A stretch of DNA of 64,000 bases from Actinocorallia herbida. Its GTDB lineage: Bacteria > Actinomycetota > Actinomycetes > Streptosporangiales > Streptosporangiaceae. Of the stretch, positions 971 to 8,062 are shown one piece after another. Position numbers and translations under genes: made by a program. Numbering within the stretch: the stretch's first letter is position 1; every line of letters starts with the position of its first letter. Under the pieces are notes generated by a model. That model searched no databases, was not told the DNA's origin, and was given only the letters and a program-made list of their open reading frames with translations. Location of the stretch: positions 1,054,001 to 1,118,000 of the forward strand of contig NZ_RJKE01000001.1 of NCBI RefSeq assembly GCF_003751225.1. Reading direction: 5' to 3'.

Positions 971-2113
971 CTAGCGGGGGAGCCCGAGGGTGCGTTCGGC
1001 GATGATGTTGCGCTGGATCTCGCTGGAGCCGGCGTAGATGGTGTCGGAGCGGCTGAAGAGGCCGATGCGCTGGAGTTCGGAGAGGTCGTAGGGGGCGTCC
1101 TCGGCCAGGAGGCCGGCGGGGCCGGCGGCGTCGAGGGCGATCTCGCCGAGGCGGCGGTGCCATTCGGACCAGAACAGCTTGGCGACGGCGACTTCGGGGC
1201 CGGGCTCGCCCGCGCCGAGTGAGCGCATCGTGCGCAGGGCGTTGAGGCGCATCAGTTCGAGCTCGCTCCAGGAGCGCACCAGGCGGTCGCGCAGCTCCGG
1301 GAGGGTGCCGTGGGCTCGGGCGACGGCGACGACGGCCTCGAACTCGCGCCGGAAGCCGATCTGCTGGCCCAGGGTGGACGCGCCGCGCTCGTAGCCGAGG
1401 GTGGCCATGGCGACCCGCCAGCCTTCGCCGGGCGCACCGATGATGTTCGAGGCGGAGGTGCGTGCGCCGTCGAAGAAGACCTCGTTGAACTCGCTGGTGC
1501 CGGTCGGCTGGATGATCGGCCGGACCTCGATCCCGTCCTGGTGCATGGGGACGAGCAGGTACGAAAGGCCCTTGTGGCGCTGGGAGCCCGGTTCGGTGCG
1601 GCAGACCACGAAGCACCAGTCGGCGACGTGCGCGAGGGACGTCCACACCTTCTGCCCGGTGACGATCCAGTCGTCGCCGTCGCGGACGGCCCTGGTCTGC
1701 ACGTTGGCGAGGTCGGATCCCGCGTCGGGTTCGGAGTAGCCCTGGCACCAGAGTTCGTCTCCGCGGACGATGGGCGGCAGGAAGCGCGCGCGCTGCTCGT
1801 CGGTGCCGTAGTCGATGATGGTCGGGCCGATGAGGCCCTCGCCTATGTGCCCGAGCCTGTGCGGCGCGTGGGCCTTGGCGTACTCCTCGAAGAAGACGAC
1901 CTGCTCGGCGAGGGTCGCCTCACGTCCGCCGTGCTCCTTCGGCCAGCCGAGGCAGGTCCAGCCGTTCGCCCCGAGGTGCTTCTCCCAGGCGAGCCTGATG
2001 TCGAAGCCCTCGTGCTCGCGCCCCGGCCCGCCGAGGCCGCGCGCCTCGCGGAAGTCGCCTTCCAGGCTCGCGGTGAGGAAGTCGCGCACCTCGGCGCGGA
2101 ACGCGTCGCTCAT
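971..2113 (-). CDS. Acyl-CoA dehydrogenase family protein (FadE-like)
   Basis: This 380-aa flavoprotein has full acyl-CoA dehydrogenase length. Visible family motifs are QGYSEPDAGSDLA (FAD/substrate region, near residues 124-136), the WIVTGQKVWTS strand, and the C-terminal IYAGSSEIQRNIIAER block. The family removes alpha,beta hydrogens from acyl-CoA thioesters and passes electrons to ETF. In MCAD-type enzymes the catalytic Glu lies in a YEG motif at the last block; here it reads YAG, so the base must come from elsewhere, as in isovaleryl-CoA-type and several actinobacterial steroid-pathway enzymes. The gene follows the flavin reductase by 4 nt and so belongs to its operon, under the palindrome at 2663-2680. 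The substrate is unknown; a branched or ring-derived acyl-CoA is a reasonable inference from the neighbours. Confidence 0.9.
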   Translation of the reverse strand: MSDAFRAEVRDFLTASLEGDFREARGLGGPGREHEGFDIRLAWEKHLGANGWTCLGWPKEHGGREATLAEQVVFFEEYAKAHAPHRLGHIGEGLIGPTIIDYGTDEQRARFLPPIVRGDELWCQGYSEPDAGSDLANVQTRAVRDGDDWIVTGQKVWTSLAHVADWCFVVCRTEPGSQRHKGLSYLLVPMHQDGIEVRPIIQPTGTSEFNEVFFDGARTSASNIIGAPGEGWRVAMATLGYERGASTLGQQIGFRREFEAVVAVARAHGTLPELRDRLVRSWSELELMRLNALRTMRSLGAGEPGPEVAVAKLFWSEWHRRLGEIALDAAGPAGLLAEDAPYDLSELQRIGLFSRSDTIYAGSSEIQRNIIAERTLGLPR

Positions 2114-2117
2114 CGGC

Positions 2118-2618
2118 TCAGCCCTCGAAGCGGCCGTAGCGGCCCTGGTAGAAGACCAGCGGTTCGCCGTCGTGGTGGATGTCGAGGTGGTTGACGCGCG
2201 CGACGACGATGTCGTGGTCGCCCGCCCGGTGCTCGGCCTCCACCGAGACCTCCAGCCACGCCAGCGCGCCGTCCAGAACCGGCGTCCCCGACGGTGAGGC
2301 GCCCCAGGCGACCCCGGCGAACTTGTCGCCGCCCTTGACCGCGAGCTGGCGGCACACGGCCGTCTGTGGCTCGCTGAGGACGTTGACGCACAGATGCGCG
2401 GCCCGGCGCAGCAGCGGCCACGTGGAACTCGTGTGCGCGACGCAGAAGGCGACGAGCGGCGGGTCGAGGGAGACCGACGTGAAGGAGTTGGCGGCGAGGC
2501 CGGTGGGAAGCCCGGTGGCCGGGTCGATCGCGGTGATCGCGACGACGCCCGTGGCGAAGTGCCCGAGGACGTCCCGGAGCCGGCGGGCGTTGAGATCGCT
2601 CACGGATGCGGTGGTCAT
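2118..2618 (-). CDS. Flavin reductase (HpaC/HsaB-like) of a two-component monooxygenase
   Basis: A 166-aa protein of the flavin-reductase-like split-barrel family. Markers are FATGVVAITA near the start, GLAANSFTSVSLDPPLVAFCV, and a C-terminal YQGRYGRF. These enzymes use NAD(P)H to reduce free FMN or FAD for a partner monooxygenase. I chose the ATG at 2618 (MTTASVSD), because the longer frame to 2714 would run through the operator and -10 region. The gene leads the operon with the acyl-CoA dehydrogenase. A plausible client is the luciferase-like monooxygenase at 6955-8019, which carries the same upstream operator; that link is inference. Confidence 0.88.
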   Translation of the reverse strand: MTTASVSDLNARRLRDVLGHFATGVVAITAIDPATGLPTGLAANSFTSVSLDPPLVAFCVAHTSSTWPLLRRAAHLCVNVLSEPQTAVCRQLAVKGGDKFAGVAWGASPSGTPVLDGALAWLEVSVEAEHRAGDHDIVVARVNHLDIHHDGEPLVFYQGRYGRFEG

Positions 2619-2656: not shown

Positions 2657-2680
2657 CTATTAGCCAAGCGCTTGCTTGCT
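2657..2680 (-). promoter_or_regulatory. Operator plus -10 for the flavin reductase operon
   Basis: Read on the minus strand, the 18-mer AGCAAGCAAGCGCTTGGC (2663-2680) is followed at once by TAATAG (2657-2662), a -10-like hexamer. The same layout recurs at 2722-2745 and 8039-8062. Palindromic arms CAAGC/GCTTG are typical of a TetR-family dimer site. Covering the -35/-10 spacer suggests repression. Confidence 0.72.
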
Positions 2681-2721
2681 TAAGAATGTAGAAGCCTTGC
2701 GTCCCGGCTGTCAACTAGCCA

Positions 2722-2745
2722 GCCAAGCGCTTGCTCGGTTAATCT
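2722..2745 (+). promoter_or_regulatory. Operator plus -10 for the thiolase/DUF35 operon
   Basis: GCCAAGCGCTTGCTCGGT (2722-2739) is followed directly by TAATCT (2740-2745), which fits the TANNNT -10 form. The GTG start of the thiolase-like gene is only 7 nt further, so the mRNA is probably leaderless. Same site and spacing as at 2657-2680 and 8039-8062. Confidence 0.75.
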
Positions 2746-2752
2746 CGACGGC

Positions 2753-3895
2753 GTGACCTTCCGCGACAAGACAGCCCTAGCCGGAGTGGGTTACACCCCG
2801 TTCAGCAAGAACTCCGGGGTGTCCACGCTGACCCTCGCCATGGAGGCGGTCCTCGCCGCGCTCGACGACGCGGGCCTCACCCTCGACGACGTCGACGGCC
2901 TGGCCACCCACCGCGTCGGAGACTCCACCCCGCCCTGGGTGGTCGCCCCCGCCCTCGGCCTCACCAATGTGTCCTGGTACCTCGACCAGTTCGGCGGAGG
3001 CAGCGTCTCGCATTCCGTCATCGGACAGGCCGCGATGGCGGTGGCCTCGGGCGTCGCCCGTACCGTCGTCGTCTACCGGGCCATCAACGCGCGCAGCGAG
3101 TTCCGCATGGGCGGGACGGGCAGGGGCGCCGCGCCGATCTTCGACTCGCAGTACCAGGCGCCGTACGGGTACTTCGCTCCGCCGCAGCAGTTCGCCATGT
3201 ACGCGCGTGCGCACATGAACGCATACGGCACCACGCACGAGCAGCTCGGCGCGATCTCCGTACGACAGCGCGCCTACGCGGTGAAGAACGCGCGCGCGCT
3301 CAAGCGCGACCCCATCACCCTCGACGACTACCTCGCCTCCCGCTGGATAGCCGAGCCGTTCAGGCTGCTCGACTGCTGCCTGGAGACCGACGGGGCGTGT
3401 GCCGTCGTCGTCACCTCCGCGGAACGGGCCCGCGACCTCGCCCACCCCACCGTGCTCATCTCCGGGGCGGCCTGGGGAGGCGGCGACTCGTTCTTCTCGG
3501 GCGTCCCCACCGACTTCACCACCACCGAGGCGGCCCGGATGGCGCCCCGCCTGTACGCGATGGCCGGAGTCGGCCCGGGGGACGTCGACGTGGCCGAACT
3601 GTACGACTGCTTCACCTACTCCGTCCTCGTGCAACTGGAGGACTACGGCTTCTGCGCCAAGGGAGAGGGCGGCCCGTACGTCGAGTCAGGGGAGGGGCCC
3701 GCGGTGAACACCCATGGAGGGTTCCTGTCCGAGGGCTACGTCCACGGCATCAACCATGTCGCCGAGGCCGTCGCGCAACTGCGCGGCACCGCGGGCGACC
3801 GCCAGGTCGAGGGCGCCGAGGTGGCTCTGTCGACCGCCCAGCCCGGCTACGTGCTGGCCGGCACGTCGGCCCTGATCCTGCGAGGCGAGCGATGA
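2753..3895 (+). CDS. Thiolase-fold lipid-transfer-type protein lacking thiolase cysteines; likely retro-aldolase subunit
   Basis: A 380-aa thiolase-superfamily protein of the SCP-x/Ltp branch. The usual nucleophile Cys near residue 90 is absent: the region reads GGGSVSHSVIGQAAMAV (residues 81-97). The C-terminal CxG motif is also replaced, by QPGYVLAGTSA. Retained family blocks are ETDGACAVVV (about 211-220), AELYDCFT (Tyr284) and NTHGGFLSEGYVHG (His321, Tyr329). This resembles Ltp2, which with a DUF35 partner cleaves 17-hydroxy-3-oxo-4-pregnene-20-carboxyl-CoA by retro-aldol chemistry using tyrosines instead of cysteine. The next gene is a DUF35 protein overlapping by 4 nt, which strengthens the comparison. 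The start is GTG, 7 nt after a -10 element, so translation is probably leaderless. The substrate is unknown. Confidence 0.88.
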   Translation: MTFRDKTALAGVGYTPFSKNSGVSTLTLAMEAVLAALDDAGLTLDDVDGLATHRVGDSTPPWVVAPALGLTNVSWYLDQFGGGSVSHSVIGQAAMAVASGVARTVVVYRAINARSEFRMGGTGRGAAPIFDSQYQAPYGYFAPPQQFAMYARAHMNAYGTTHEQLGAISVRQRAYAVKNARALKRDPITLDDYLASRWIAEPFRLLDCCLETDGACAVVVTSAERARDLAHPTVLISGAAWGGGDSFFSGVPTDFTTTEAARMAPRLYAMAGVGPGDVDVAELYDCFTYSVLVQLEDYGFCAKGEGGPYVESGEGPAVNTHGGFLSEGYVHGINHVAEAVAQLRGTAGDRQVEGAEVALSTAQPGYVLAGTSALILRGER

Positions 3896-4278
3896 CGGCG
3901 AACCGGCTCGACCCCGACCGCGACTCCGCGCCCTGGTGGGAGGCGGTCGACCGCGGCGAACTGCTGCTCCAGCGCTGCGCCGGGTGCGGCACGCCCCGCT
4001 TCCCCGCCCGCGCCCTGTGCAACCGGTGCAGGTCGCGTGACAGCGACTGGATCCCGGCGCGAGGCACGGGCGCGGTCTACAGCTGGATCGTGAACCACCA
4101 GAGGTTCATGCCGGACGTGCCCGTGCCGTTCGCGGTCGTGTGCGTGCGGCTGGACGAGGGCGAGGACATCCTCATGTACGGCAACCTGCTCAACGCCGAC
4201 CCTTCGGAGCTCGCCCCCGGCCTCCGCCTGCGCGCCGTCATCAAGGACGGCCTTGTGCAGTGGACTCCCGAGGAGTAG
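3892..4278 (+). CDS. DUF35 OB-fold protein with zinc ribbon
   Basis: A 128-aa protein. Residues 22-50 form a four-cysteine zinc ribbon (Cys29, Cys32, Cys43, Cys46: CAGC ... CNRC), followed by an OB-fold (GTGAVYSWIV, VPVPFAVVCVRLDEG, LRLRAVIKDG). DUF35 proteins bind acyl-CoA and act with thiolase-fold partners; in steroid degraders the DUF35 domain of ChsH2 is required for the Ltp2 aldolase. The start ATG overlaps the stop of the thiolase-like gene in an ATGA, so the two are translationally coupled and probably form a complex. The gene is convergent with the ligase at 4284, with only 5 nt between stops. Confidence 0.9.
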   Translation: MTANRLDPDRDSAPWWEAVDRGELLLQRCAGCGTPRFPARALCNRCRSRDSDWIPARGTGAVYSWIVNHQRFMPDVPVPFAVVCVRLDEGEDILMYGNLLNADPSELAPGLRLRAVIKDGLVQWTPEE

Positions 4279-4283
4279 GCCGC

Positions 4284-5822
4284 CTACGAAGCGGACGCCC
4301 GTAGGGAGATCTTGTCCACCTTGCCGTTGACGTTCAGCGGAAGTGCCTCGACGGGGACGACCCGCCGGGGCACCTTGTAGTTGGACATGTTCGCCTTGGC
4401 CCAGGTCCTGACCTCCTCGGGCGAGGCGCTTCCGATGACGAACGCGCAGGCCGCCTCGCCCATCGCCGCGTCGGGGATCCCCACGACGGCCACCTGGGTG
4501 ACGCCCGGACAGCGCAGGAGCAGGGCCTCGATCTCCGCCGGGTAGCCGTTGAACCCGTTGGCGATGAACATCTCCTTCTTGCGGTCCACGATGGCGAGGT
4601 TGCCCGCTTCGTCCAGGGTGCCGATGTCGCCGGTGTGCAGCCAGCCGTCGGCGTCGACGGCCTCGGCGGTCCGCTCGGGGTCCCGCCAGTAGCCGGGCAT
4701 GACGCCGTAGCCCCCGACCAGGATCTCCCCGCGCTCGCCGGAGGGCAGGTCCTTGCCTTCGTCGTCCACGATGCGCAGCTCCACGCCGGGCACCGCGCGT
4801 CCGGTGGTGCCCGCGATGACGTCGATGGGGTCGCCGGGCCTGGTCATGGACACCACGGTGCCCTCCATGAGGCCGTAGGCGTTGATCATCCGCTCCACCC
4901 CGGCCTCGGCGAGCATCCGCCGGATGAGTTCCGACGGCACCGCGGCGGCCCCGCAGATCGCGACGCGGAGCGAGGAGACGTCCCGGCCGGGCAGTTCGTC
5001 CAGCAGCTTGAAGAACATCGCGGGCGCCCCGGCGATGACGCTGACGCGCCGGGTCTCGATGAGGTCGAGCAGCGCGTCGGGCTGGAAGAGCGCGATCGGC
5101 ATCATCGTGGCGGCGCGCAGCACGCAGGCCAGCAGCCCGGCGTTGATGCCGAAGCCGTGCGAGAACGGCGCGATGATCGGGTACCTGTCGCCCTCGCGGA
5201 CCGTCACCAGCTCGGCCCAGTCCCAGTACCCGCGCAGGAGCTGCCAGTGCTGGAGCATGACGCCCTTGGGCGCGCCCGTCGTGCCGGACGTCGCCATGAT
5301 CTCCGCGAGCCCGTCCGGCCGTACGGCCAGAGCGCGTTCTTCCGCGGCCTCCGGCGAGACGGACTCGCCGAGCGCAAGGAACTCCGCCCAGGCGTCGCCG
5401 CCGTAGGGGACGACGGTCTTGAGGTCGGGCAGGTCCGCGCCTTCGAGCATCGCCAGGTAGGACGTGTCCATGAAGCCCTCGGCGACGAACAGCGCCTTCG
5501 CCCCGGTCTTGCGCAGCACCTCCGCCGCCTCGATGCCGCGGAAGCGGGTGGACAGAGGCGCGACGGCGGCTCCCGCGTCCCACAACCCGTAGCAGGTGAC
5601 GACCCAGTCGGGGGTGTTGGGCGCCCACACGGCCACCCGGTCCCCGGGTTCGACGCCCACGGCGATGAGGCTCCGGGCCACTTGCGCGGCCCGGTCTCTC
5701 AGCTCCTCCAGCGTCAGCGTCACGTCCTCGGTGGACACGACCTCCACCGCGCCGTGCGTGCGCGCGCGGTCGCGCAGCATGCGCGGGATCGTGCCCCAGT
5801 CCGGTACCGGCGCCACTTCCAT
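4284..5822 (-). CDS. Acyl-CoA ligase (AMP-forming, FadD3-like)
   Basis: A 512-aa complete ANL-superfamily ligase. Seen in order: the P-loop ATSGTTGAPKG (about residue 178), the PFSHGFGINAGLL block, INAYGLMEGT (A5), GWLHTGDIG (A7), IVDRKKEMFIANGFNGYPAEIE (A8) and the C-terminal catalytic Lys in NVNGKVDK. It would activate a carboxylic acid to its CoA ester. The middle resembles FadD3, the ligase for the steroid C/D-ring propionate, more than generic fatty acid ligases, but residues alone cannot fix the substrate. The ATG at 5822 (MEVAPVPDW) is used; the longer frame runs through the neighbouring gene's shadow. It lies third in the operon led by the luciferase-like gene, 95 nt after the PaaK-like gene. 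Confidence 0.9.
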   Translation of the reverse strand: MEVAPVPDWGTIPRMLRDRARTHGAVEVVSTEDVTLTLEELRDRAAQVARSLIAVGVEPGDRVAVWAPNTPDWVVTCYGLWDAGAAVAPLSTRFRGIEAAEVLRKTGAKALFVAEGFMDTSYLAMLEGADLPDLKTVVPYGGDAWAEFLALGESVSPEAAEERALAVRPDGLAEIMATSGTTGAPKGVMLQHWQLLRGYWDWAELVTVREGDRYPIIAPFSHGFGINAGLLACVLRAATMMPIALFQPDALLDLIETRRVSVIAGAPAMFFKLLDELPGRDVSSLRVAICGAAAVPSELIRRMLAEAGVERMINAYGLMEGTVVSMTRPGDPIDVIAGTTGRAVPGVELRIVDDEGKDLPSGERGEILVGGYGVMPGYWRDPERTAEAVDADGWLHTGDIGTLDEAGNLAIVDRKKEMFIANGFNGYPAEIEALLLRCPGVTQVAVVGIPDAAMGEAACAFVIGSASPEEVRTWAKANMSNYKVPRRVVPVEALPLNVNGKVDKISLRASAS

Positions 5823-5888
5823 GACAGCTCCTCGGGCTCGCGGGGCCGGGAGCCCGCCAGGAGGTCCCGGCCGGGGGTGGGACGGGCG

Positions 5889-5909
5889 GGGCCCCGGAAG
5901 CCGGGGCCC
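5889..5909 (-). other. Hairpin inside the ligase operon
   Basis: A 9-bp perfect stem (5889-5897 with 5901-5909, loop AAG) lies in the 95-nt gap between the PaaK-like gene and the ligase. In a cotranscribed operon this would act as a partial terminator or a processing/stability element. No T-run follows. Confidence 0.4.
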
Positions 5910-5917
5910 GTCGCGGT

Positions 5918-6958
5918 CTACAGGGAAGCGCGGTCGCGGCCCAGGTGGTGGCCGCGCAGATCGGTCACGATCGGCGGGACGTGCGCCTCCACGGCCTCGG
6001 GCGCCACGGCCACCTCGATGGAGACCGGGGTGACGCCGACGAGCGCCTGAGAGATCCGGCCCGACCACATCGGGTTCCGGACGAGGCTGTCGCGGGCGAA
6101 CGTCACCCGCAGGACGGCCCGGTCGAGGGTGCCGTCGCGGGAGACCTCCAGGTTCCAGTGGCTGATCCCGTCGATGCGCGAGAGCACGTCGGTGACGCGC
6201 GGCAGCGACAGCCAGCGGCCCCGCACGACGAGGTGCTCGCCGGCGGTGTGCACGGGCTGTGCCGCGCCGCCCCCGGTGAACCAGCCGGTGCGCAGGTGCG
6301 CGCCGCCGAGCGTCGAGTGCCAGGTGGGCGTGACGACGATCTCGGCGGGTCCCGCGTGGTCGGCGACGAGCTCGTCCTTGGCGGGCGGCGCGAGCCCGAG
6401 CAGACCGGGCCGGACGGGGGTGAGCCCGGGTCCGTGCGCGATCGGCACCCCGAAGTACGGGTCGGCGAAGAGCTGGACGACGTCGGCCTCGAACTCGGTC
6501 TCGAGCTGCCGCAGCCAGTTCTTCGACGGGATCTCGCCGACCAGCAGGATCCGGTCGAGCTCGAGGTCGAGCGGGTCGAGCAGGAACTCCAGGTGCAGCC
6601 GGGCGAGGAAGTCCATCGCGCCCGACGGCGTGGTGACGAGCACGTTCGCCCGGGTCTGCTCAAGCGCGCGGTGCAGCCGCAGCCTTCCGCGCGGCCCGAC
6701 CGAGGCGGCCGCCGACGCGAGCGGCAGCGCCGCCTCGGCCAGCGACGATCCCTGGAGCTCGCCGTCGTTGTTCAGCGCCACGATGAGCCGGTCCGCGGCG
6801 CGCACGCCCGCCGCGGCGAGCGTCTCCGCGGTCAGCTCCAGCGCCGCCGCCCGGTCCTCGGGCGCGAGCGGCACGACGGTGTCGGCGTCGGGGGAGAGCA
6901 GGAGGAGGCCCTTCGCGGAGGCTCCTCCCGAGAGGTCCTGGCGGGTCGGCCAGCTCAC
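5918..6958 (-). CDS. Degenerate phenylacetate-CoA ligase-like (ANL fold) protein without P-loop
   Basis: A 346-aa protein whose core follows PaaK-type ligases: a helix matching the AAGVRAADRLIVALNNDG region, SVGPRGRLRLHRALEQTRANVLVTTPS, then LVGEIPSKNW and a VVQLFADPYFG block where PaaK has its YGLTE motif. The ATP-binding P-loop (SSGTTGxPT) that should precede the first block is missing; that position reads SPDADTVVPLAPED. The A5 Tyr-Gly-Leu-Thr-Glu is also not conserved. It therefore probably cannot form an adenylate by the normal route, and may be a substrate-binding or regulatory partner of the neighbouring ligase. GTG start overlaps the upstream stop by 4 nt (GTGA). Confidence 0.7.
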   Translation of the reverse strand: MSWPTRQDLSGGASAKGLLLLSPDADTVVPLAPEDRAAALELTAETLAAAGVRAADRLIVALNNDGELQGSSLAEAALPLASAAASVGPRGRLRLHRALEQTRANVLVTTPSGAMDFLARLHLEFLLDPLDLELDRILLVGEIPSKNWLRQLETEFEADVVQLFADPYFGVPIAHGPGLTPVRPGLLGLAPPAKDELVADHAGPAEIVVTPTWHSTLGGAHLRTGWFTGGGAAQPVHTAGEHLVVRGRWLSLPRVTDVLSRIDGISHWNLEVSRDGTLDRAVLRVTFARDSLVRNPMWSGRISQALVGVTPVSIEVAVAPEAVEAHVPPIVTDLRGHHLGRDRASL

Positions 6959-8019
6959 TTCATCACCTCGTTCATGAAGCGGCGCATCGAGTCGGTGACG
7001 TGGTCGTGGGCGAGTCCGCCGACCTGGGCCTGGAGGATCAGGTCGGTCGCGCCCGCGGCCTCGAGGCGCTCGATGGCCTTGCGCGAGCCCTCGACGTCGT
7101 CGATGACGACCATCAGGTTGTCGCGCAGGATGTCCATAGCCTCTTCCGGCGGCATGGCGACGGCCTGCTGCCCGAGGACGCGGTGGGTGGCGTGCCGGGC
7201 GTCGGTGTAGCTCGGCGGCGCCACGAGGTTGACCTGACGGCGCAGGTACCACAGGACCGGGTCGGACGCGGTCTCGACGGCCTCGGCCCGGGTCTCCCCG
7301 ACGTACCACGGGATCATGATCGCGATCCGCCGGCTCTCGGGGTCGAACCCGTTCTCGGCGAGGCAGGCCTTGTAGGCGGCGATGTCCTCGGCGACGTCGT
7401 CGATGCCCTTGAGCATCGTCATGCCGAGCAGGTTGTAGCCCTGCTTGCCCGCGGCGAGGAAGCCCTCCAGCGAGGTGGAGGCGACCCAGACGGGCGGGTG
7501 CGGCGTCTGGGTGGGCCGCGGGTAGACCGCGACGTTGGGGATCTCGAAGTACTCGCTGCTGCGGGTGATGGGCTGCCCGTCGGCGTTCCAGATGGCCAGG
7601 ACGGCCTCCAGGGACTCCTCCCACAGCTGCCGCGACTGCTCGAACGGCCGTTGGAAGGCCTGGTACTCCAGCGGGGACGCGCCCCGCCCGGTGCCGAACT
7701 CCACGCGTCCGCCCGACAGCACGTCGAGGGTGGCGACGCGCTCCGCGGTGCGGATCGGGGACTGGAACGGCAGTAGCACCACGCCGAGCCCGAGGTGGAT
7801 GTTGCTGGTCCGCTGGGACGCCGCCGCGAGCACGAGGTCGGGCGCCGAGGAGTGGGAGAACCCACGGGTGAAGTGGTGCTCGACGAACCAGGCGGTGTCC
7901 ATCCCCAGCTCATCGGCGAGGACCACCTGGTCGAGCACGTTCCGGAACGCCCGGCTCTCGACCTCGCGGCTGCGTCCGCGCACTTCCAGCTCGTACCCGA
8001 CGCTGATCCGAAGGGTCAT
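6955..8019 (-). CDS. LLM-class (luciferase-like) flavin-dependent monooxygenase
   Basis: A 354-aa TIM-barrel protein of the bacterial luciferase-like family. Visible are DTAWFVEHHF and SGGRVEFGTGRGASPLEYQAF (FMN phosphate region), and VYPRPTQTPHPPVWVASTS. Members use reduced FMN and oxygen to hydroxylate or Baeyer-Villiger oxidise substrates, or use F420. The flavin reductase at 2118-2618 shares the same operator, which favours the FMN/monooxygenase reading. The start is the ATG at 8019 (MTLRIS), with GGAGG 8 nt upstream; the in-frame ATG at 8049 falls inside the operator. It leads a three-gene operon with the PaaK-like protein and the ligase. Confidence 0.87.
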   Translation of the reverse strand: MTLRISVGYELEVRGRSREVESRAFRNVLDQVVLADELGMDTAWFVEHHFTRGFSHSSAPDLVLAAASQRTSNIHLGLGVVLLPFQSPIRTAERVATLDVLSGGRVEFGTGRGASPLEYQAFQRPFEQSRQLWEESLEAVLAIWNADGQPITRSSEYFEIPNVAVYPRPTQTPHPPVWVASTSLEGFLAAGKQGYNLLGMTMLKGIDDVAEDIAAYKACLAENGFDPESRRIAIMIPWYVGETRAEAVETASDPVLWYLRRQVNLVAPPSYTDARHATHRVLGQQAVAMPPEEAMDILRDNLMVVIDDVEGSRKAIERLEAAGATDLILQAQVGGLAHDHVTDSMRRFMNEVMK

Positions 8020-8038
8020 GCCCCGCCTCCGCTCTCTT

Positions 8039-8062
8039 GTGTTAACCAAGCGCTCGCTTGGT
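8039..8062 (-). promoter_or_regulatory. Operator plus -10 for the luciferase-like operon
   Basis: ACCAAGCGAGCGCTTGGT on the minus strand (8045-8062) is a near-perfect palindrome with 8-bp arms. It is followed directly by TAACAC (8039-8044). This is the third copy of the operator/-10 arrangement and the most symmetric one. Confidence 0.75.

Follow-up and report, generated by a model that had tools for sequence, protein, structure and literature searches.

KstR2 is a repressor that controls part of steroid breakdown. Its described representatives (Rv3557c, MSMEG_6009 and ro04598) are TetR-family proteins, for which PMC3068626 gives three motif instances per genome and a regulon of 15 genes. Here we analyze a stretch of 64,000 nucleotides from Actinocorallia herbida (contig NZ_RJKE01000001.1, positions 1,054,001 to 1,118,000; hereafter the window), in which an initial annotation, made from the letters alone, had attributed three palindromic sites at the promoters of a catabolic island to one repressor. 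The sites are most probably operators of a single TetR repressor encoded outside the window, a KstR2 paralogue that we call KstR2-A; on the sequence evidence, we put the probability of this explanation as a whole at about 0.86. A literature search, covering titles and abstract openings and reaching subscription journals only thinly, returned no description of this regulon and nothing on KstR2 in connection with Actinomadura or a luciferase-like monooxygenase.

The likeness to KstR2 as described in PMC3068626 extends from the TetR family and the operator sequence to the divergent promoters, the acyl-coenzyme A (acyl-CoA) ligase and acyl-CoA dehydrogenase genes, and a site in the regulator's own promoter; IpdABC and EchA20-type genes may be a further shared feature. 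In contrast to KstR2, KstR2-A falls in a paralogous clade, at least 16 exact places of the operator core are found in A. herbida, and the putative regulon holds luciferase-like (LLM) flavin monooxygenases, hydantoinase-type proteins, an ATP-binding cassette (ABC) transporter and a protein here called P6. The operator at the second window site (CCAAGCGCTTGCTCGG) agrees in 16 of 16 bases with the kstR2 operator from M. tuberculosis listed in Table 3 of PMC3068626, where the latter is given as positive in electrophoretic mobility shift assays.

The three sites (site 1 at 2660-2678 on the minus strand, site 2 at 2724-2742 on the plus strand, site 3 at 8042-8060 on the minus strand) each match the pattern CAAGCNNNNGCTYGGYTAA without a mismatch in a scan of the window, which bears out the initial claim that they share one pattern. 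With up to three mismatches allowed, the window holds 8 matches, compared to a mean of 2.17 and a maximum of 7 in 100 dinucleotide shuffles, and 7 of the 8 overlap the three sites in a shifted or reversed register. When the dyad alone is searched for with two mismatches tolerated, the window gives 4 matches against a shuffle mean of 2.81, which is not significant; the strength of the three-site observation lies in the full pattern and its conservation. An order-3 Markov model trained on 399 kb of the A. herbida genome predicts 6e-6 matches to the initially proposed consensus per window and 0.001 per genome, values that serve as a guide and not as a test, the consensus having been derived from the sites themselves. 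Hundreds of equal matches, which the initial annotation had regarded as an argument against one repressor, did not appear in the whole 9.80-Mb contig: CAAGCNNNNGCTYGGYTAA has 3 exact matches (the window sites only), 9 rows with at most one mismatch and 57 (26 + 31) with at most two. Between A. herbida and Actinocorallia sp. API 0066, operators 1 and 2 agree in 31 of 32 bases, compared to 54 of 94 in the remaining intergenic region.

What the three sites have in common is a 16-bp dyad, CCAAGC-N4-GCTTGG, with the 15-letter core CCAAGCNNNNGCTTG. The initial annotation recognized CAAG-NN-CTTG, the KstR2 core, in two of the sites and set the third apart. The motif is indeed exact in the first two sites, and site 3 departs from it at one position, but the third site fits as well once the operator is read as the 16-bp dyad. 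The nine published KstR2 sites (PMC3068626, Table 3), which comprise seven different sequences, all differ from the 16-bp frame by 0-2 mismatches. For A. herbida we assembled 27 places from genome-wide pattern scans and from scans of selected stretches at up to two mismatches, 13 in the gene cluster around the island and 14 outside it, with weaker places included. In this set, which was selected by the 16-bp frame and hence favors it, the frame fits with at most one mismatch in 21 places, while CAAGnnCTTG, the core of the published KstR2 consensus AnCAAGnnCTTGnT, is exact in 9. A 16-bp dyad may be the better description of the operator. The 14 distal places are a selection, the one-mismatch core rows having been followed in part; two-mismatch matches inside cluster genes (961741, 966595, 992661 and 1075119) or inside genes of the distal stretches, and a one-mismatch place at 78547, were set aside.

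The core CCAAGCNNNNGCTTG is exact at 16 distinct places in the genome. These include window sites 1 and 3; site 2 is one mismatch off. Eight of the 16 fall in a stretch of about 70 kb (992.8-1062.1 kb; binomial P 8e-14) that begins 61 kb left of the window and extends 8 kb into it. The single repressor of the initial annotation is well supported, by a KstR2-like TetR gene in this cluster and by the co-occurrence described below, but the regulon would be far larger than the seven genes envisaged. The pattern read backwards is a poor control, since it outnumbers the true pattern in many genomes, A. herbida included; regulator-negative relatives, the Markov expectation and coding windows were therefore used instead.

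The initial annotation considered the regulator absent. This is true of the window, but the genome encodes a KstR2-like TetR protein 26 kb to its left, in the same cluster (G000:C1:1027628-1028290, plus strand; L064:7628-8290), which was found by a Pfam TetR_N scan of the A. herbida genome (match at 1027739; 150 of 485 candidates scored). The best solved relatives of this protein, KstR2-A, are 2ibd (phmmer E 3e-53; PDB title 'Possible transcriptional regulator'), which we take to be Rhodococcus ro04598, and the KstR2 structures 4w1u (6e-49) and 4w97 (8e-49). Its recognition helix, ILSGSLYHHF, is that of KstR2 4w97 and of 2ibd. Two CAAG-type sequences are seen by eye in its own promoter, ACAAGCGCTTGCTCAG (L064:7548-7563) and CAAGCACTTG (L064:7596-7605), beyond which CATAAT stands six bases ahead of the GTG start. 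The next KstR2-like paralogue of A. herbida is only 28% identical. Nearby, an operator at G000:C1:1029630-1029645 stands between two genes, either of which may be its target: on one side, at a distance of 144 bp, a gene for a solute-binding protein, beyond which permease-, glycosidase- and LacI-like genes are seen by eye, and on the other, at 243 bp, a thiolase-like gene.

Relatives of KstR2-A at E <= 1e-40 occur in 68 of 296 genomes of the class. Seven genomes of the family (G055, G087, G151, G215, G232, G241 and G259) have two copies, one 66-73% and the other, copy B, 42-45% identical. In an unrooted tree of 43 proteins (KstR2-A of A. herbida, 40 loci and two PDB stretches), the KstR2-A clade is split off at 99/99 and a clade of 23 at 100/99, with other rows between them. 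The latter contains the solved KstR2 proteins, copy B, and rows from genome groups f4, f26 and f18, which by our own reading rather than by a tool result are presumably Mycobacterium, Nocardioides and Streptomyces, respectively. The sole row of the KstR2-A clade from outside the family, L144, has a very long branch and its placement is unsure. By this tree, KstR2-A is a paralogue of KstR2 and not its orthologue.

As judged from the genome sequences, operator, island and regulator co-occur across the family and are usually linked. Exact CCAAGCNNNNGCTTG rows were counted in 28 family genomes, 13 with and 15 without KstR2-A. Many rows are found in six of the 13 positive genomes (A. herbida 20, G055 18, G151 16, G131 14, G259 14 and G232 10), while the negative ones have no row (13 of 15) or a single one (2 of 15), and no many-site genome without KstR2-A occurs among the 28. 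Among 120 family genomes, KstR2-A (at least 60% identity) is present in 71, and 10 of the other 49 carry a more distant copy (40-56%). P6, which marks the island and adjoins an LLM gene in the islands read, occurs in 30 of the 120, namely 30 of the 71 KstR2-A-positive genomes compared to 0 of the other 49 (P 6e-9). KstR2-A and P6 lie on one contig within 60 kb in 24 of these 30 genomes and on different contigs in 6.

The further test of the LLM promoter covers 24 of the 30 P6-bearing genomes, from 17 genera. The six left out are A. herbida, G131, G232, G259 and G151, which had already been seen, and G055, in which an exact site (C18:142719) lies 1.2 kb upstream of P6; of the 24 included, G355 is API 0066, also seen before, and G356, G366, G376 and G387 are congeners of genomes already seen. 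In all 24 an operator is found within 200 bp of the LLM start, at 11-55 bp, exact in 23 and with one mismatch in the remaining one, compared to 0 of 192 control windows at up to two mismatches, these windows being coding and not intergenic. An exact operator precedes the LLM-P6-FadD unit in A. herbida, API 0066 (for which 17.8 kb around P6 were compared), G232, G131, G259 and G151, and the divergent pair of the flavin reductase/acyl-CoA dehydrogenase and Ltp/DUF35 units has two operators in the same genomes, except for G232 with one. A second LLM-FadD unit (g1026009-g1024467) has one operator, and a TauD-type dioxygenase gene is accompanied by one, in G232, G131, G259 and G151; for an aldehyde dehydrogenase gene the same holds in G131, G259 and G151.

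The palindrome had also been described as running directly into a TAA-type -10 element at all three promoters. The letters YTAA do stand directly 3' of the palindrome at each of them, but a real-looking -10 element is present at site 2 only: the canonical actinobacterial -10 element is TANNNT, and sites 1 and 3 read, by eye, TAATAG and TAACAC. Of the 24 further LLM promoters, only 10 retain the TTAA after the site 3 operator. The promoter at site 2 is probably leaderless. In the A. herbida set, TANNNT immediately follows the 16-mer at 7 of 43 gene-directed sites, more than for any other offset, and the arrangement TANNNT-N5-8-start codon is found in 9 of 54 directions, compared to 132 of 3713 upstream control windows (Fisher P 1.4e-4) and 14 of 20,000 random positions. 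This arrangement, with window site 2 among the nine, is leaderless as the sequence reads. The genes behind sites 1 and 3 have a GGAGG-type leader (by eye) and no TANNNT after the operator. From these positions we infer that repression would operate by covering the -10 element or the start region.

The coordinates of the island are collected in Table 1. Gene calls and family scans agree with the seven genes in three units that the initial annotation had listed, namely the acyl-CoA dehydrogenase and flavin reductase (minus strand), the Ltp and DUF35/ChsH2-like proteins (plus strand), and the LLM monooxygenase, P6 and the FadD-like ligase (minus strand).

Table 1. Genes, candidate operators and predicted promoter element of the island, in window coordinates
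Feature	Position	Strand	Remarks
Acyl-CoA dehydrogenase	971..2113	-	Pfam/NCBIfam scans
Flavin reductase, HsaB-like	2118..2618	-	177.5 bits (HsaB cut-off, 230)
Candidate operator 1, CCAAGCGCTTGCTTGC on the plus strand	2664..2679	-	promoter of the flavin reductase/acyl-CoA dehydrogenase unit
Candidate operator 2, CCAAGCGCTTGCTCGG	2723..2738	+	promoter of the Ltp/DUF35 unit
Probable -10 element TAATCT	2740..2745	+	7 nt before the GTG start at 2753; TAACCT in API 0066
Thiolase-like lipid-transfer protein (Ltp)	2753..3895	+	best solved relative 6ok1 'Lipid-transfer protein', E 1e-80
DUF35/ChsH2-like partner	3892..4278	+	oligonucleotide/oligosaccharide-binding (OB) fold and zinc ribbon
Acyl-CoA ligase, FadD3-like	4284..5822	-	580.7 bits (family cut-off, 657)
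P6, island marker	5918..6958	-	found in 30/120 family genomes
LLM flavin monooxygenase	6955..8019	-	Pfam/NCBIfam scans
Candidate operator 3, CCAAGCGAGCGCTTGG in the direction of transcription	8046..8061	-	perfect outer dyad; promoter of the LLM/P6/FadD-like unit

The Ltp and DUF35 proteins form a pair, as in the Ltp2-ChsH2 aldolase to which 6ok1 belongs, but lie in a different operon. P6 matches no Pfam family, and a profile search gave no solved relative; a weak similarity to PaaK could point to a degenerate ligase. The structure model of P6 is of low confidence (mean predicted local distance difference test score 52.9). Pfam and NCBIfam scans of selected cluster genes further show six LLM monooxygenases, several short-chain dehydrogenases/reductases (SDRs) and acyl-CoA dehydrogenases, acyl-CoA ligases, a hydantoinase A/B pair, an amidase, two DUF35 proteins and a branched-chain-type ABC transporter. 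The cluster also contains an IpdC/IpdB/IpdA/EchA20/IpdF-like block (1044.9-1050.1 kb), named from family matches and gene order and accompanied by a two-mismatch site. Three of its family models score above cut-off (PRK07938, PRK07856 and PRK07791), which we equate with Rv3550, Rv3549c and Rv3548c. The block suggests, by its family assignments, a polycyclic, CoA-activated substrate. In a run at G000:C1:1005904-1012578, two acyl-CoA dehydrogenase genes, hydantoinase A/B and an LLM gene stand head to tail behind an operator at 1005872, and the run looks like one unit of the regulon; together with the nearby amidase (1013284), the hydantoinases may hint at a nitrogen-containing substrate.

Near the distal places we find genes for cytochromes P450, CoA-transferase III, a thiolase with an SDR, aldehyde dehydrogenase, TauD, PhyH, a ligase and another Ltp/DUF35 pair. 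A perfect operator at G000:C1:1464909 (L066:8909-8924) lies about 200 bp upstream of a flavin mononucleotide (FMN) riboswitch that precedes ribE-ribBA. An exact site in G151 (L211:5712-5727) stands 94 bp upstream of an FMN riboswitch, with a ribE relative 1.3 kb beyond. Through such a riboflavin-linked operator, the supply of flavin may be tied to the regulon of flavin monooxygenases.

In the mechanism that we propose, a KstR2-A dimer would read the 16-bp dyad and, when bound, block RNA polymerase, because the dyad is found 11-55 bp from the start of the LLM genes and, in several promoters, adjoins or overlaps -10-like elements. By analogy with KstR2 and the CoA thioester of HIP (HIP-CoA), a CoA thioester of the pathway would release the repressor. 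Release would jointly switch on the acyl-CoA ligases, the flavin-dependent monooxygenases with the flavin reductase, the acyl-CoA dehydrogenases, the Ltp/DUF35 proteins and the IpdABC/EchA20-type enzymes, which would then break down a carboxylate, probably a polycyclic one. In relatives that also possess a KstR2-clade copy, a G-to-A difference in the half-site would keep the two repressors apart.

This last step can be examined by comparing KstR2-A with copy B, a member of the same protein family. In 7 of the 7 two-copy family genomes read, EchA20 and IpdABC adjoin copy B, and a KstR2-like gene accompanies an IpdABC/EchA20/IpdF block in 3 of the 3 f18 genomes (L145, L146 and L147). Neither the copy B loci (L116, L120, L122, L125, L127, L129 and L132) nor the three f18 loci hold a CCAAGC-frame site at up to one mismatch; instead, most of them have CTAACAAANGTTTGG, a G-to-A variant of the CTAAC...GTTTGG type, before EchA20. 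Among 31 genomes in all, CTAACAAANGTTTGG occurs once each in five of the seven two-copy family genomes (not G087 and G241) and in the three f18 genomes, is absent from A. herbida, and turns up a single time in G291, a genome without a relative at E <= 1e-40. The recognition helix differs correspondingly: in 40 loci, scored over stretches of up to 20 kb, an LSGS helix is found in 30 (19 with a CAAGC-type site at up to one mismatch and 11 with none; 3 have a sequence scoring as the G-to-A variant), and an LAGS or LGGS helix in 10, namely the copy B and f18 loci (none with a CAAGC-type site, 9 with the variant). A His/Tyr covariation is broken by L116 (LAGSIYHHF, variant operator) and L144 (LSGSLYYYF, CAAGC-type operator), both on long branches, and the Ser position is therefore indicated. 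The correlation, over few independent changes, points to an operator variant that follows the Ser versus Ala/Gly position of the helix. Hybrid operators, CCTAAC-GCTT-GCTTGG in the IpdF/EchA20 promoter, were considered as a record of a hand-over from B to A and rejected, as they also occur in the B-bearing L124 and L126 and in L149.

It is tempting, though we would put it a little below an even chance, to see here two paralogous KstR2 lines. Line A would have the CAAGC operator and an undescribed regulon of flavin monooxygenases and CoA-thioester ring degradation, perhaps reaching the riboflavin operon, and line B would go with ipdABC/echA20 and a CAAAC-type operator, the choice being set by Ser versus Ala/Gly in a change that apparently arose twice.

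We have also considered that the regulator is KstR2 itself, as an orthologue, and the island ordinary steroid (HIP) catabolism. The operator and the recognition helix are the same, the Ipd-type block lies in the cluster, EchA20 has no second copy in A. herbida at E <= 1e-30, the nearest paralogue of the regulator is distant, and KshA_C has two matches elsewhere in the genome; in G131, which like A. herbida has one copy, the Ipd-type block adjoins KstR2-A. However, the tree separates the KstR2-A clade from that of the solved KstR2 proteins, and the window ligase and flavin reductase score below the FadD3 and HsaB cut-offs. Moreover, the island is not filed under steroid catabolism because EchA20 and IpdABC adjoin copy B in all seven two-copy genomes read. 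We consider the orthologue unlikely. Much less likely still is another TetR protein, such as that of the TetR_C_31 gene within the cluster (G000:C1:1012589-1013191), even in a genome with at least 150 TetR_N matches (150 of 485 candidates scored): no place with up to two mismatches is near that gene, the nearest being 1005872 and 1020821, operators and P6 track KstR2-A, and it is KstR2-A that has the helix of known CAAG-reading proteins. That the sites are hairpins, repeats or chance is the least probable of all. They are short palindromes, and at the distal place 1464909 the perfect palindrome is longer and comes right behind rpe, but the expected numbers are far lower, the sites stand in promoter positions, they recur in all of the further genomes and none of the controls, and they are nearly absent from KstR2-A-negative relatives.

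Several observations weigh against KstR2-A as the common repressor or against parts of that explanation. Seven of the 13 KstR2-A-positive genomes have 0-1 exact core rows and P6 is missing from 41 of the 71, and the regulator therefore also occurs without a large regulon. The sites before the KstR2-A gene are, by eye, imperfect in the 16-bp frame. The 16-bp frame is our own reading, and CAAGnnCTTG is exact in 8 of the 9 published KstR2 sites listed in Table 3 of PMC3068626. The metabolic context is weak at some distal places (7118974), and the site after rpe could be a hairpin. Finally, the effector need not be HIP-CoA, because the orthology test places KstR2-A outside the clade of characterized KstR2.

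With KstR2-A as the predicted repressor, a regulator and a conserved regulon would be assigned to a large uncharacterized catabolic cluster, and KstR2-type control, published with three sites per genome, would come to include a paralogous regulon in which at least 16 places are exact. The A/B pair would offer a natural experiment on the avoidance of cross-talk after repressor duplication, in which a single residue and a single base pair are involved. The conserved operator would also offer a handle on the substrate, as a compound that derepresses these promoters would point to the pathway.

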